Below, one piece after another: positions 49,034-55,203 of a DNA stretch of 64,000 nucleotides. The translations under genes and the position numbers were made by a program. Numbering within the stretch: position 1 is the stretch's first letter; each line of letters opens with the position of its first letter. Below the pieces are notes generated by a model, which saw only the letters and a list, made by a program, of their open reading frames with translations, ran no database searches and was not told the DNA's origin. This DNA is from Ghiorsea bivora (lineage in GTDB: Bacteria; Pseudomonadota; Zetaproteobacteria; Mariprofundales; Mariprofundaceae), in the NCBI RefSeq assembly GCF_000744415.1, contig NZ_JQLW01000008.1:124001-188000 (forward strand), written 5' to 3'.

Positions 49034-49050
49034 AAAAGTTGGAGTCATAT

Positions 49051-49501: not shown

Positions 49502-49921
49502 TTATTGAAGTGTTTTGAGATATTCAATGATATCTGCGCGGTTATGGTCATCTTGCATGGTGGGCAAGGTAGGCATTGCCAAACCAAATTTATTGGATTC
49601 AATTAGAGCCTGTGCTGTTTCATCTGTTTTTGCAAATGTTTCAGGGCTTTTTATCCAGTGGTTTAACCAGTTTACATCATGGCGTTCAAGTACTCCCCGT
49701 AAACCCGGCGCACCAATTCTGCTTTCTTCATACGTTGTATTGTGACAATGCGTACAAACTGTATCAAAGGTTATCTTGCCTCGCGCTGCAGAAGCTGTGA
49801 AGGGTTTAGACTCTGCTATAGCTTGCGTATCAGGGCCCTCTTCAGCCGCACTTTGGGTGACGATTGGAAAAAGCGAAAGCATGATGGTCATTGTTGCCAT
49901 GATGTGAAATGCTTTGTTCAT
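49502..49921 (-). CDS. Periplasmic monohaem cytochrome c
   Basis: This 139-residue protein has a Sec signal peptide (residues 1-24) and a class I cytochrome c domain with one CTHCH haem site near residue 55. A Met-containing stretch (LAMPTLPTMQDD) near the end probably gives the axial ligand. Such carriers shuttle electrons between periplasmic or outer-membrane donors and terminal oxidases. ATG 49921 is preceded by AAGGAGA. It is monocistronic. Confidence 0.9.
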   Translation of the reverse strand: MNKAFHIMATMTIMLSLFPIVTQSAAEEGPDTQAIAESKPFTASAARGKITFDTVCTHCHNTTYEESRIGAPGLRGVLERHDVNWLNHWIKSPETFAKTDETAQALIESNKFGLAMPTLPTMQDDHNRADIIEYLKTLQ

Positions 49922-50007
49922 TTTGTCTCCTTGGCTAATAGATATGCCCGCGAAAAAACGCTGTTGCATATCTTTATGTGATTACAGTGAAAAAGCAATA
50001 TTAAATT

Positions 50008-51129
50008 TTATGCTCGTACGACCAAGAATACCTCTTTGGTGAAAGACCATAGGGCTTTGGATATTTGTTTGATGCGTGTACGAATAAAGTTGCATTTCAC
50101 ACAGCCACCACCAGCCACTTGTGCGCGTACTTCTTCGCGTGGGTAGATGGTTTCACGCCAAAATTCGATGCGGTGTGAAAAGCTAGGTAACATGCGAGAA
50201 AATAACCGTTCGGCTAGATATGGAATAAGTTCGTGATTCATGAAACGTTTGAATAATTTTGTTTCGATAAAACCCATACCAGGTTTTATTTGCTGTAAAA
50301 CATAGTCGGGCACAGGTGCTTGTAAATGTTCTTTGGCATAAGATAAAGCATAATAACAAGGTCGCTCTAACTTATATTCTGCAATACCTTCTAAAACTTC
50401 GCTCCATTGTTGATTCTGCTCCACTTGTTTGGCAAGCAATGCGATATCATAAATCCAAATCAAACGTTCGAATGAGTGTTTGAGTGCATGGAAACAAAGG
50501 TAAGGTAACATCACACGAGGGCGTACCAGCAACGCTTTCTCACCTGCTAGTTTCCCTTCTTCTGCATATTTAAAAAAGTCTTTGGCTTGAAGCGGAGTGA
50601 TGTGTTGCCAAGCTTTGATGCGTTCAGAGCCAATGGCTTCGATGTGTAGATCAAGAGGGATATCACCTTGTTTAAACAGCATGGGGTAGGCAGGTAATGG
50701 GCGATAATGCAGCTGGTTGCCAACAATTTGTTTTGCCATGAGTAAGTGTTTTTGATCAAATAGAATATCAATATCCGTATGTGGTCGCAGGTATGGCTGA
50801 GGGTATAAGGTTTCGCTAACGGCAAGACCACGCATGCAAATGATAGGAATATTGTTTTCATTGAATGCACGCAATATACGTGCGGTTGCATTTTTCATGC
50901 GCAGAAAGTCTGCCATGAAAACACGTTCATTCATGGGATTGATGAGTAAGGGCTGTACGATATCCTTTTGGTTTTGTTCTAATTGAGACCAAAGCAGCGG
51001 GAAAATGGCTTCACCTTGTGCATAAGTCCAAAAATCGGTGTTTTTTAAAATAGTTTCTGGAATATGCTGTTGCAATGCAAGGCATACATTTTTTCTATAA
51101 TATTTGAATGATAAACTAGCCATGAGCAT
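50008..51129 (-). CDS. Nucleotidyltransferase-fold protein (PF14907-like)
   Basis: This 373-residue protein matches the uncharacterised nucleotidyltransferase group found in peptide-modification and polysaccharide loci. It has a helical N-terminus, then C-M-R-G-L-A-V-S-E-T-L-Y-P...L-R-P-H-T-D-I-D-I-L-F with the metal-binding Asp pair near residues 119-121, and a long helical C-terminus. The family's common Lys-Gly is Arg-Gly here. It is divergent from the cysteine-rich gene, sharing its 133-nt upstream region. It may attach a nucleotide or nucleotide-like group to the peptide or to a partner, but the substrate is unknown. Confidence 0.75.
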   Translation of the reverse strand: MLMASLSFKYYRKNVCLALQQHIPETILKNTDFWTYAQGEAIFPLLWSQLEQNQKDIVQPLLINPMNERVFMADFLRMKNATARILRAFNENNIPIICMRGLAVSETLYPQPYLRPHTDIDILFDQKHLLMAKQIVGNQLHYRPLPAYPMLFKQGDIPLDLHIEAIGSERIKAWQHITPLQAKDFFKYAEEGKLAGEKALLVRPRVMLPYLCFHALKHSFERLIWIYDIALLAKQVEQNQQWSEVLEGIAEYKLERPCYYALSYAKEHLQAPVPDYVLQQIKPGMGFIETKLFKRFMNHELIPYLAERLFSRMLPSFSHRIEFWRETIYPREEVRAQVAGGGCVKCNFIRTRIKQISKALWSFTKEVFLVVRA

Positions 51130-51169
51130 ATCTTAGAACTGAAGTTCGATAAAAGCTAGCCGATAGTAT

Positions 51170-51178
51170 TGGTATACT
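51170..51178 (+). promoter_or_regulatory. Candidate extended -10 promoter of the cysteine-rich gene
   Basis: TGGTATACT fits an extended -10 element (TGnTATAAT with one change) about 85 nt upstream of the start codon. No good -35 is visible, which extended -10 promoters can tolerate. The divergent nucleotidyltransferase gene begins 41 nt to the left. Confidence 0.35.
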
Positions 51179-51262
51179 AAATTGTGATGTAGGTATTGGA
51201 CAATGGCTTATTAAGACTTTAGTGTTGTTCTAAATGTTTTTTAGCTGGGGTAGGAGTACGTG

Positions 51263-51682
51263 ATGAATGAACAAAAAGAAGTGACCAATGATATTCGCCG
51301 AAAGCTTTTAAAAGCGGTTGTTTATGCACCACCTGTGATTCTCGGCTCTATGGTGGCAACACCACGTACGGTGATGGGTGCTATTGGGCAAACAAAAGTC
51401 TGCAAGTTGGCTGCTGGTGGTGTAGTTAGTATTGTCATCTCTTCAGGTACAAATGCATGTTGTCCTTGTGTGCCAGGTTCAAAAAAATTTAACCCTGTGA
51501 AATGTGCAAGAGACCAATGTATTAAATCTTGTGGTAGTAATTGTACACCAGCGGCAATTGCAGACATCGTGGCTAATAATAAGTGTGATAAGTTCTGTAA
51601 AACCTGTGGTGGCATTCCTGCGAGTTTGGCAGGTGCATGTACGTGCAACTGCATTAAAGGCAGTCCGAATAAGTGTAATTAA
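51263..51682 (+). CDS. Cysteine-rich protein with Tat-like leader, probable substrate of the adjacent radical SAM enzyme
   Basis: This 139-residue protein has 15 cysteines, all after residue 46 (C47, 66, 67, 69, 81, 86, 90, 94, 108, 112, 115, 126, 128, 130, 138). The leader contains IRRKLLKAVVYAPPVILGS, an Arg-Arg start and hydrophobic core as in Tat or leader peptides. The rest is rich in Cys, Lys, Asn, Gly and Ala. ATG 51263 has TAGGAG 6 nt upstream; GTG 51260 is the alternative. It directly precedes radical SAM, PqqD-like and HPr-kinase-like genes, so a modified, exported peptide or metal-binding protein is likely. The function is not known to me. Confidence 0.82.
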   Translation: MNEQKEVTNDIRRKLLKAVVYAPPVILGSMVATPRTVMGAIGQTKVCKLAAGGVVSIVISSGTNACCPCVPGSKKFNPVKCARDQCIKSCGSNCTPAAIADIVANNKCDKFCKTCGGIPASLAGACTCNCIKGSPNKCN

Positions 51683-51690
51683 TTCATATA

Positions 51691-52896
51691 GTGCTCCCGC
51701 ATTATATATTCCTTGTTGAAGGTCAATTTGTACGTTGTATTTCAGATGTTGAAAGCAAGTCTGTTACACTGATTCATGCTTTTGATGAAGCGAAACAACT
51801 GGTTTTAAATGGTAGTTTTGCAGAAGCTTTAATACAGCAGTTGAACACGCCTAATCCTGCAACTTCAAACATACTTCAAGTCATTGAGAAACAGCATGGC
51901 TGGCTTACAGGTTTATCAAAGGCAAGTTTGATGCCTGCAGATTTTCAACAGTTGGTGATTGGTGATGAATTGGGTTTGTTGTTTCTGGAAATCACCGACC
52001 AATGTAATGAGCAATGTATTCATTGTTATGCATCATCATCACCCGCATGTTCTGATTTTTTATCGTTGCATGAAATCAAAAGTATTCTTGAACAAGCCCG
52101 TTGTTTAGGAACACCTTTTGTGCAATTTACAGGTGGCGACCCACTGATTCATCGGAATTTGGTCGAAGTTGTGGCTTATGCTCATGAATTAGGTTTTGAG
52201 GGTATGGAAATTTATACCAATGGTTTGTTGTTAAATGAGAAACTACTGGAGCAGCTTTTACCTTATCAGCCCAAAATCGCATTTTCTTTGTATTCCCCAG
52301 ATGAAGCTGTGCATGATGGCATTACACAGGTCAAAGGTAGCTTTAAAAAGACTGTAGCTGCTATTCATAGGGCGCAGGATATGGCATTTCAGGTGCGTAT
52401 TGGCATGGCGGTGATGCAGCAAAATGCAGGTCATGAACAAGCCATGTTAGATTTTGTACAAGAAACATTCTATTTGGATAAGTCACATGTGCGTTTTGAC
52501 CCTGTGCATGAAACAGGGCGTGGTGCGAGTTTAAGCACCAAAAATATTTCATTGATGCCCTCGCAGAACTCACACATGCCTGAATCAACCAAGAAACCTG
52601 CACACCACCAAGTGGTACAAACAGATAAAATTGAAAGCGGTTTTGTATCTCAACATATAGGACGCAGAGGTAAACTTGCGGTGTGTGCCAATGGTGATGT
52701 GAGCCCATGTATTTTTAATCGTGAACACGTGCTTGGTAACATTCGCCAACAGACATTTCAAGAGATGTTTGCTGTAAAAAATAAGGGTTTAGGTAATAAG
52801 AATCCAAACATCGAACGGTGGAATAACTGCCAACATCAATTAAGCTGTGGCGATTGTCAGATGGTGGCGTACACCCTTGGAGCACATGATGAATGA
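51691..52896 (+). CDS. Radical SAM/SPASM peptide-modifying enzyme
   Basis: This 401-residue protein has a 90-residue N-terminal region without motif, possibly a peptide-recognition domain. The radical SAM core has C-N-E-Q-C-I-H-C (C105, C109, C112), FTGGDPL and YTNGLLL. A C-terminal SPASM-type region has cysteines C332, C340, C380, C386 and C389 for auxiliary clusters. The family includes PqqE, sactipeptide and ranthipeptide maturases that form thioether or C-C links on peptides. The start is a GTG 8 nt after the cysteine-rich gene with no visible ribosome site, suggesting low or coupled expression. It overlaps the PqqD-like gene. Confidence 0.88.
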   Translation: MLPHYIFLVEGQFVRCISDVESKSVTLIHAFDEAKQLVLNGSFAEALIQQLNTPNPATSNILQVIEKQHGWLTGLSKASLMPADFQQLVIGDELGLLFLEITDQCNEQCIHCYASSSPACSDFLSLHEIKSILEQARCLGTPFVQFTGGDPLIHRNLVEVVAYAHELGFEGMEIYTNGLLLNEKLLEQLLPYQPKIAFSLYSPDEAVHDGITQVKGSFKKTVAAIHRAQDMAFQVRIGMAVMQQNAGHEQAMLDFVQETFYLDKSHVRFDPVHETGRGASLSTKNISLMPSQNSHMPESTKKPAHHQVVQTDKIESGFVSQHIGRRGKLAVCANGDVSPCIFNREHVLGNIRQQTFQEMFAVKNKGLGNKNPNIERWNNCQHQLSCGDCQMVAYTLGAHDE

Positions 52897-53182
52897 AGCC
52901 TTTGAAATTACAGTACCCAATATGCCGAAACGTATTGATAAGCTTATTTGCGAAGAGCTTGAAGAGCAGGGTGCTTATGTTTATATCCATGAAGATGATG
53001 GCACTACGATTACGCTAAACCCTACAGCATCAGCTGTGTTTGATATGTGTGATGGTCAAACAACGGCTGAAGACATGGCAAAGCTTTTATCAGAAACTTT
53101 GGGTGTAGATTATACAAACACGCTTAGGGATGTTCATGATATACTTACTGAGCTGTCAGGTTTTGGCTTCTTTCAAACATAA
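52889..53182 (+). CDS. PqqD-like peptide-binding protein
   Basis: This 97-residue protein shows the PqqD pattern: PKRIDKLICEELEEQGAYVYI, then TLNPTASAVFDMCDGQTTAEDMAKLL and a C-terminal helix-strand ending GFGFF. PqqD proteins bind leader peptides and hand them to radical SAM partners. ATG 52889 (GGAG 6 nt upstream) overlaps the radical SAM stop by 8 nt. The HPr-kinase-like gene begins 3 nt after it. Confidence 0.88.
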   Translation: MNEAFEITVPNMPKRIDKLICEELEEQGAYVYIHEDDGTTITLNPTASAVFDMCDGQTTAEDMAKLLSETLGVDYTNTLRDVHDILTELSGFGFFQT

Positions 53183-53185
53183 CTG

Positions 53186-54058
53186 ATGAAACAATGGTGT
53201 GTGCAATGCCGTATTGCTGGTGTTGTGATACAGGTAGATGCGAATACGACTGCCTGTCAGCAAGATATGTGGAAGTTTCTTAAGCTGTATGAACATGTTG
53301 AACATCAACAGCCAAACTTATATTTTTCGGTGATCTATGAGCAAGGTGTATATCATTTTTCTTGCATCATTGGTGATCAACCAAGCTTGCAATTATGGTC
53401 AAGTTCAGATGATAGAGAAGTGAGTGCGGCTTTAGAAATTCATTTTTATAGCCAACTTGTGCAATATTTATATCGAGAAAAACATATTTTATCTATACAT
53501 GCCGCAGTACTTGGTGTGGCAAACCAAGCGGTCATGTTTGCGGGTGAATCGGGCGCTGGAAAGAGTAGTATTTGTACGGCGGGGCTGTTATCCGAAGCCA
53601 GTTATTTGTCTGATGAGTTTACCTTGCTGGCAGATGATGGGTATGTGCATCCATTTCCAAGACCTATGCAGTGGGAACATAAAGAACACCCAGCTTTTGA
53701 TAGAGAGAAAATAGAGCGTACAGGTTTGATTGCAGCGGACTACTTTGATTTCCCTGATACTGAGGGTGAAATTGTGCGTTGCCATTTATGGCATCCTACA
53801 CATGTGCAGCGCCAGCCACTAAAGCTGAAAACCATGGTGTTGCACCAATACAATGCTGGGTTGGAGAAACCTGTGTTGGCACCAATTCCACGCCATGAAG
53901 CTTTAATGGAACTGCCGCAACATCTGCATATTCAAGCGGGCATGGCAAAAGATTTCCCTATGCTTAACCAACGTATTGACCAAGATTGTATTTTTTATCG
54001 CTTACATTTCCCCAATGTGTTTGCTGCTTGGGCATTGTTGGAAGCTAAAGTCTTTTAG
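53186..54058 (+). CDS. HPr-kinase-like ATPase
   Basis: This 290-residue protein has a variable N-terminal half and an HprK/PckA-type core: LSIHAAVLG, P-loop AGESGAGKSS at residues 119-128, and YLSDEFTLL as the second metal-binding strand. Related kinases sit beside PqqD genes in peptide clusters; in paeninodin-type lasso clusters such an enzyme phosphorylates the precursor. There is no partner HPr system in the window. It is the last gene of the cluster and overlaps the convergent ATP-grasp gene by 4 nt. Confidence 0.85.
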   Translation: MKQWCVQCRIAGVVIQVDANTTACQQDMWKFLKLYEHVEHQQPNLYFSVIYEQGVYHFSCIIGDQPSLQLWSSSDDREVSAALEIHFYSQLVQYLYREKHILSIHAAVLGVANQAVMFAGESGAGKSSICTAGLLSEASYLSDEFTLLADDGYVHPFPRPMQWEHKEHPAFDREKIERTGLIAADYFDFPDTEGEIVRCHLWHPTHVQRQPLKLKTMVLHQYNAGLEKPVLAPIPRHEALMELPQHLHIQAGMAKDFPMLNQRIDQDCIFYRLHFPNVFAAWALLEAKVF

Positions 54059-55203
54059 TTTTTTGTGATGAAGCGTTTACACATAAGTTTAAGCCAAGCG
54101 CGGTTGGCTGCTTTATCATGTTTATCCCATGCGCCAAAGCAGGTGTTGGCTTGATGTTTGTACATTGCTTTGATGGTTGACCATGAAAGGTTATGCCAAT
54201 CGGGTTGGTGCATGGTGGAAGCAATCATGCGTGAGTATGTGGTTTTCGAGCGTTGCAAACAGGTAGGCTCAAGCTGTGTGTCTTCAGTGCAAAGATGGTG
54301 ATAAGCTTGCAAGAAACCTGCACCATCAGCTTCAGCAAAACATGCCCAGCCTGATAATCGAGGGTTGATTTCTAAAAGTTGCCATCGCCCTGAAGCATCT
54401 TGTTTACATTCCACTTCGGCAAACCCTTGCCAGTTGAGTTCAGATAGCAGCGCAATGGCAGCATGGTATAATTCAGGTATCCACTCTGCTTTGGCAGCAA
54501 TAGTTTCACCAAAAGGACCATACATGGTTTGAGATACACGAATACGGCGAGTCGTAAAGCCACGGACAGGTCGGCTGTTTTCATCAAACAATAGTTGTAC
54601 GGATGCCATACGATTGGTTTCACCAGAAATATACTGTTGCACACGCTGCACAAGATGGAAAGGGTAGTTTGGATTGTTGTTGAACCAGTTTTGCATGGTG
54701 TTCGCATCATCAAATGTGATAAAACCATGACGAAAAGACTTGATGATGACAGGAAAACCAATGTTTTTTGCAGTTTCAAGCAGTTGGGTGCCATCGCAAT
54801 ACGCCGTTTGTGGAATGCCAAGTTTGCCTTGCCATTGTTGCAGATAATAGGTATTGCTTTGCTCGATTTGGCTGGGGTGTACGCTTAAAAACCGCATGCC
54901 ATATTTACGCAGCAAAGGTGTATATTCAGCCATAAGCTCAGCAATATCATCCACCAAGGGCACAAACACCCCGTGCATATTGGCTTTTTTGATGTTTAGT
55001 GCATATACACCCTTGTTGACTGCGCCAAGGTTAGGCATTTCAGCATATTGGCTGATATAGGTACTTTTTTTTACCCAAGGCGTACTTTTTATATCTTCAA
55101 TAAAACCTTGAACATCATAATTGGCTCGTCCTGCAGCTTGGGCTAAGGCAAAGACTTGAGAGTCTTGTAAATTATGAAAAATGAAGGGTAGTTTTTGACT
55201 CAT
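54055..55203 (-). CDS. ATP-grasp family protein
   Basis: This 382-residue protein has a central ATP-grasp fold: LGIPQTAYCDGTQLLETAKNIGFPVIIKS (first Lys strand), a lid region, EVECKQD, and LLEINPRLSGWACFAEADG with the metal-binding Glu and Asn. ATP-grasp enzymes ligate carboxylates to amines or thiols, often on peptides. It overlaps the nth start by 4 nt and ends against the HPr-kinase-like gene, so it is transcribed with nth. Its membership of the peptide cluster rests on adjacency only. Confidence 0.82.
   Translation of the reverse strand: MSQKLPFIFHNLQDSQVFALAQAAGRANYDVQGFIEDIKSTPWVKKSTYISQYAEMPNLGAVNKGVYALNIKKANMHGVFVPLVDDIAELMAEYTPLLRKYGMRFLSVHPSQIEQSNTYYLQQWQGKLGIPQTAYCDGTQLLETAKNIGFPVIIKSFRHGFITFDDANTMQNWFNNNPNYPFHLVQRVQQYISGETNRMASVQLLFDENSRPVRGFTTRRIRVSQTMYGPFGETIAAKAEWIPELYHAAIALLSELNWQGFAEVECKQDASGRWQLLEINPRLSGWACFAEADGAGFLQAYHHLCTEDTQLEPTCLQRSKTTYSRMIASTMHQPDWHNLSWSTIKAMYKHQANTCFGAWDKHDKAANRAWLKLMCKRFITKN

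Follow-up and report, generated by a model that had tools for sequence, protein, structure and literature searches.

The window, a 64,000-nucleotide stretch of the 2.15 Mb Ghiorsea bivora genome, carries a cysteine-rich gene at 51263..51682 (+) whose product, here called the precursor, has 139 aa and 15 Cys. The open reading frame was confirmed, beginning with an ATG at 51263 that has GGAG upstream and an in-frame GTG as the preceding codon. Its translation bears out the preliminary description, in which all 15 cysteines lay beyond residue 46: they occupy positions 47, 66, 67, 69, 81, 86, 90, 94, 108, 112, 115, 126, 128, 130 and 138. Against the 0.99% Cys content of the long ORFs in the window, a count of at least 15 in 139 aa has P ~1e-11, and, given 15, their complete absence from the first 46 residues has P ~0.0016. 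The N-terminal elements named in that description were also recovered, namely RRKLLK (residues 12-17), APP (22-24) and a hydrophobic core in the leader (Kyte-Doolittle peak of 1.68 over 17 residues). Differences from two close relatives are mostly synonymous (dN/dS ~0.11), thus this is a real gene under purifying selection; an antisense ORF at 51322-51654 was taken as spurious. The precursor matched no Pfam, NCBIfam or PDB family, metallothionein and other known Cys-rich families included, and its AlphaFold2 model, made with 21 homologues, was set aside at a pLDDT of 48.

Three closely spaced or overlapping genes follow in the same direction, nearly abutting. The first (51691..52896, +) encodes a radical-SAM/SPASM protein (PF04055, E 2e-20; SPASM, 1e-5), a candidate maturase; the second (52889..53182, +), overlapping it, a PqqD-family peptide chaperone, i.e. 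a stand-alone RiPP recognition element (PF05402, E 1.3e-11); and the third (53186..54058, +) an HprK-like kinase (TIGR04352, E 7.5e-13, 48.2 bits against a cut-off of 200). Divergent from these is a nucleotidyltransferase gene of the NTP_transf_5 family (50008..51129, -; PF14907, E 4.7e-34), and the intergenic sequence at 51130..51259 that separates it from the precursor gene should hold the putative promoters of both. Catalytic residues are preserved in the two tailoring candidates: those of the kinase Walker A motif are invariant in 17 orthologues, and the nucleotidyltransferase has an invariant RG / DxD / D set (R100-G101, D119, D121, D160) in 19. Profile searches of the PDB with the kinase, the nucleotidyltransferase and the precursor gave no matches. 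The cassette contains no transporter, leader peptidase or other protease, or immunity gene, and none of the eight proteins scanned at the locus matched the MNIO (DUF692) enzymes. On the kinase side, an ATP-grasp gene (54055-55203, -) is convergent with the kinase gene and lies beside the cassette in many lineages; it may be an accessory enzyme, and was rejected as a core member for being frequent but inconstant. On the other side, a cytochrome c gene (49502-49969, -) adjoins the nucleotidyltransferase gene; neither it nor an ORF at 49039 was counted as core, both being conserved neighbours only in Ghiorsea-like loci.

The radical-SAM protein conserves the CxxxCxxC motif and the SPASM cysteines, and among solved structures its profile best matches the sactipeptide maturase SkfB (E 3e-18). 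Its AlphaFold2 model (pLDDT 83) places four strands and three helices ahead of the radical-SAM core, an order of elements that one would expect in a RiPP recognition element. Foldseek ranked SkfB and SuiB at the top, with CteB and ChlB lower, at TM-scores of ~0.5, so that the domains of the model are arranged differently from those of its matches. The protein also falls below the cut-offs for named maturases (StsB, 87 bits vs 625; AlbA, 77 vs 850), and the best NCBIfam model of any kind scored 108 bits vs a cut-off of 500.

Patterns derived from the precursor were run against 84,980 species of bacteria and archaea, one genome for each, an approach that detects close relatives only, and all matches were in Zetaproteobacteria. 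Profile searches found the precursor in about half of 78 Zetaproteobacteria and no convincing homologue outside that class in a 398-genome phylum sample. Fifteen non-Zetaproteobacterial profile matches (E 0.003-0.1) were inspected and look like chance; several belong to one transposase-like family and a few are leader-only matches to Tat-like N-termini. A match in genome G028 was likewise dismissed, the cassette being absent at its locus. The 42 distinct homologues gathered are all from Zetaproteobacteria. Some genomes have the precursor in two tandem copies, and in five loci (L006, L009, L010, L011 and L101) tandem, diverged precursor paralogues precede the radical-SAM gene.

The precursor and an orthologue of the radical-SAM protein (E <1e-90) occur in the same 37 Zetaproteobacteria, and no other sampled genome has the orthologue; a genome of another family gave a weaker, partial match (2e-48). 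As a separate observation, the nearest non-Zetaproteobacterial relatives that we saw are a pair of radical-SAM proteins from neighbouring genes, both with additional sequence at the N-terminus, encoded at L209:1070-3956 in a member of another Pseudomonadota family (G085), in what looks like a different RiPP locus. Gene order (one or more precursors, radical-SAM, PqqD and HprK, with NTP_transf_5 divergent) is held down to <35% precursor identity. This arrangement recurs at homologous loci on long enough contigs, with the NTP_transf_5 gene adjacent in nearly all of them, and the exceptions are two loci of a single genome, G006. One (L008) has no NTP_transf_5 match alongside, while the other (L063:7189-9305) has NTP_transf_5, precursor and PqqD genes with the radical-SAM and kinase genes absent; therefore the full enzyme set is not always in cis. 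The reduced locus may borrow the enzymes of the fuller one ~22 kb away.

These patterns bear on the account in which a disulfide-rich protein of an ordinary secreted type, using Sec or Tat, neighbours an unrelated radical-SAM cassette by chance. Such secreted proteins are common, and the oxidising periplasm suits many cysteines, yet the presence and adjacency of the precursor match those of the radical-SAM gene over 37 genomes, the genes are co-directional and nearly abutting, and the number of cysteines is odd, which together make this account highly improbable. That the precursor is the substrate of the cassette is, by comparison, very likely.

Within the precursor the leader is the best-conserved part, with a mean majority frequency of 0.78 vs 0.46 for the mature non-Cys residues in a 21-member alignment. 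Its motif RRKLLKAVVYAPPVILG (residues 12-28; 51296..51346, +) joins a twin arginine to the hydrophobic core. The pattern RRxL[LI]xxxxYxPPxxxG occurs with identical spacing in 42/42 homologues, never with a Cys inside it (0/42), and the mean maximum KD17 of the core is 1.54 over the 42 members. The twin Arg and the core, on which the preliminary description had based a Tat-like leader, are thus kept in every homologue. A predicted signal-peptidase site, V37-M38-G39 (51371..51379, +), fits a pattern, [ASVT]-x-[AG], that is found 9-13 residues beyond the leader Gly in 42/42 and takes the form A-x-A in many distant members; in the precursor, cleavage would follow G39. The textbook Tat consensus is S/T-R-R-x-F-L-K, from which these leaders depart twice: the residue before RR is V in 12, I in 9, A in 9 and S in 1 (n=31), and Leu stands after x where Phe is expected. 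The genome encodes the Tat translocase (TatC, E 1.7e-65, plus TatA/B). Judged by the leader and these genes, the precursor is probably exported by Tat, with Sec as a possible alternative.

The leader is more conserved than Tat requires, and is therefore probably also an enzyme-recognition leader; its conserved Tyr, Pro-Pro and Gly, lying within the hydrophobic core, likewise suggest a second role of this kind. Indeed, enzyme recognition alone could account for the conservation. The protein might then be a classical RiPP with a merely Tat-like leader, in which RR and YxPPxxxG do no more than bind PqqD and the radical-SAM enzyme, and whose product either is cleaved and released by enzymes from elsewhere or stays inside the cell, e.g. 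as a bacteriocin or cofactor. The invariant Tyr and two Pro in a hydrophobic stretch, beyond the needs of Tat, speak for this explanation. It is nevertheless decidedly unlikely, given a signal-peptidase-type site at near-constant distance in all members, the Tat genes of the genome and a cassette devoid of transporter, leader peptidase and immunity gene.

Turning to the mature region, 14 of the 15 cysteine positions hold Cys in at least 71% of the 21-member alignment, and three (C66, C69 and C81) do so in all members, which agrees with the earlier proposal of a Cys-dense domain. The preliminary description had named two results that would refute it, homologues devoid of the twin Arg and core and a lack of conservation at the Cys positions, and neither was obtained. 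The cysteines are spaced as CxC, CxxC and CxxxC, 15 of them in ~100 mature residues. The motif CCPC (residues 66-69; 51458..51469, +) is conserved in the alignments. As a Cys/Pro motif it is the only Cys motif kept family-wide, in variant form, with SCxPSACxPC or SCAPCFCAPC in its place in distant members; CCPC is the likely site at which the radical-SAM enzyme would act. A tail as dense in Cys as this one is not family-wide: the most distant members contain only 4-8 Cys, and their tails are quite unlike it, with much Gly, His, Asp or Lys. Ser60 (51440..51442, +), invariant in alignments A1 and A2, is a candidate acceptor for the HprK-like kinase and nucleotidyltransferase.

So many cysteines at these spacings could also mean that the precursor is a Tat-exported periplasmic metal binder, with simple Cys thiolates as ligands for Cu, Zn or an Fe-S cluster, and that the neighbouring enzymes modify it only slightly. 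Bufferins provide a parallel, being periplasmic Cys-rich copper chelators (PMC12452194). Distant members, however, keep the leader and the enzymes but so few cysteines that the conserved function does not lie in a high density of thiols, and no metal transport or resistance gene was seen among the neighbours scanned. We regard metal binding through plain thiolates as rather unlikely; a metal-buffering role is possible for the mature protein, but is likewise rather unlikely to be its main function.

The reading that we prefer is of a RiPP-like precursor that the radical-SAM enzyme, with PqqD, modifies while it is still in the cytoplasm, that is perhaps tailored at a Ser, and that Tat then exports; taken as a whole this reading is probably correct. 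It accords with the preliminary description, which had envisaged a domain modified in the cytoplasm and then carried across by Tat: the radical-SAM/SPASM protein, PqqD, HprK-like kinase and nucleotidyltransferase supply the modifying enzymes that such a reading needs, and the leader and the Tat genes lend it further support. Gene linkage, sequence conservation, family assignments and the Tat genes are what we observed; from them we infer the modifications, their sites and the export route as follows. RiPP precursors normally have a dedicated leader; here, residues 1-~39 would serve two purposes, as a Tat-type signal and as the recognition sequence for PqqD and the radical-SAM enzyme. The radical-SAM/SPASM enzyme would modify the Cys-bearing region in the cytoplasm, most likely by forming thioether crosslinks at CCPC / CxPSACxPC, although the case for thioether chemistry in particular is only slightly better than even. 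The HprK-like kinase and the NTP_transf_5 protein may phosphorylate and then cap a Ser, most plausibly Ser60. Once folded and modified, the protein would leave via TatABC, and signal peptidase would remove the leader, giving a mature protein with a presumed periplasmic or surface role. The general Tat route and signal peptidase would serve in place of a dedicated transporter and protease, and the absence of both from the cassette would then be accounted for. Tat signals direct the export of already folded proteins; a radical-SAM family that uses Tat would, if real, be a natural answer to the problem of moving a crosslinked, folded product across the inner membrane, and RRxLLxxxxYxPPxxxG would give a testable recognition code for genome mining.

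No description of the cassette was found in open-licence literature on HprK-related kinase A, Tat-signal RiPPs or Zetaproteobacteria RiPPs, and the finding suggests that the iron-oxidising Zetaproteobacteria have a family of modified and exported peptides that has yet to be described. Among known systems, the annotated HPr-rel-A cassettes (TIGR04352, TIGR04353), widespread in other Pseudomonadota, resemble it in bringing together an HprK-like kinase, PqqD and NTP_transf_5, and in many cases a small protein whose leader is of Tat type stands at the front. A small RRRxLLKG-type Tat-leader protein lies just upstream of the kinase in 12-13 of 25 HPr-rel-A loci vs 1/25 in an antisense control, and one of the 13 looks spurious. 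In the loci concerned (L126-L150, e.g. L151:4828-5361), the small protein, with a leader of the type RRRxLLKGxxAGVPAIVTLxSGAALA, often comes first; four such proteins were scanned and had no NCBIfam match. The association of NTP_transf_5 and the Tat-leader small protein with HPr-rel-A is one observed at these loci, outside the formal HPr-rel-A model. These small proteins are likely the undescribed substrates of the HPr-rel-A system, and set beside the Ghiorsea precursor they suggest what these widespread and unexplained cassettes act on. The differences are that HPr-rel-A substrates are not Cys-dense and their leader lacks YxPPxxxG; none of 14 HPr-rel-A loci examined has a radical-SAM gene resembling the Ghiorsea one; and the Ghiorsea kinase stays under its cut-off (48.2 bits vs 200) and its PqqD has no TIGR04353 match, whereas a control HPr-rel-A locus passes both TIGR04352 and TIGR04353. 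Because the gene set is common to both, the radical-SAM gene is absent from the 14 loci and the scores are below cut-off, the Zetaproteobacterial cassette is most aptly seen as a relative of the HPr-rel-A kind that bears a radical-SAM gene and falls outside the formal cut-offs. More broadly, and with about even chances of being right, much of the Zetaproteobacteria may possess a Tat-exported RiPP-like class in which a single sequence acts both as Tat signal and as the leader that PqqD and a radical-SAM maturase recognise, with kinase/nucleotidyltransferase tailoring, and which together with the HPr-rel-A cassettes would form a broader superfamily, as yet undescribed, whose proteins undergo modification in the cytoplasm before Tat exports them in folded form.

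Sactipeptide and ranthipeptide systems (SkfB, SuiB, CteB, AlbA, StsB) combine, like the Ghiorsea locus, a SPASM radical-SAM enzyme, an RRE/PqqD element and a neighbouring Cys-bearing precursor that has a leader. The Ghiorsea precursor is larger and has a Tat-type signal, the kinase and nucleotidyltransferase are additional, an ABC transporter is absent, the radical-SAM protein is below every maturase cut-off, and the thioether is putative. The tailoring pair has its counterpart in lasso peptides of the paeninodin/pseudomycoidin type, in which an HprK homologue and a nucleotidyltransferase tailor a Ser; in some lasso peptides the HprK homologue phosphorylates the Ser and the nucleotidyltransferase then adds hexose to the phosphate (PMC8498205). 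The Ghiorsea cassette differs in having no lasso cyclase or B protease, and in its Cys-rich precursor and radical-SAM enzyme. RiPP precursors with signal peptides have been called highly unusual, and experimental proof of export by a general pathway in the natural host exists only for Sec-exported bufferins, whose signal peptides have been proposed to double as recognition leaders (PMC12452194). Bufferins and oxazolins (MNIO/DUF692) resemble our proposal in that their Cys-containing precursors bear a signal peptide in place of a classical leader and are exported after cytoplasmic modification (PMC12452194), but they use Sec signals, an MNIO enzyme and a partner protein other than PqqD.
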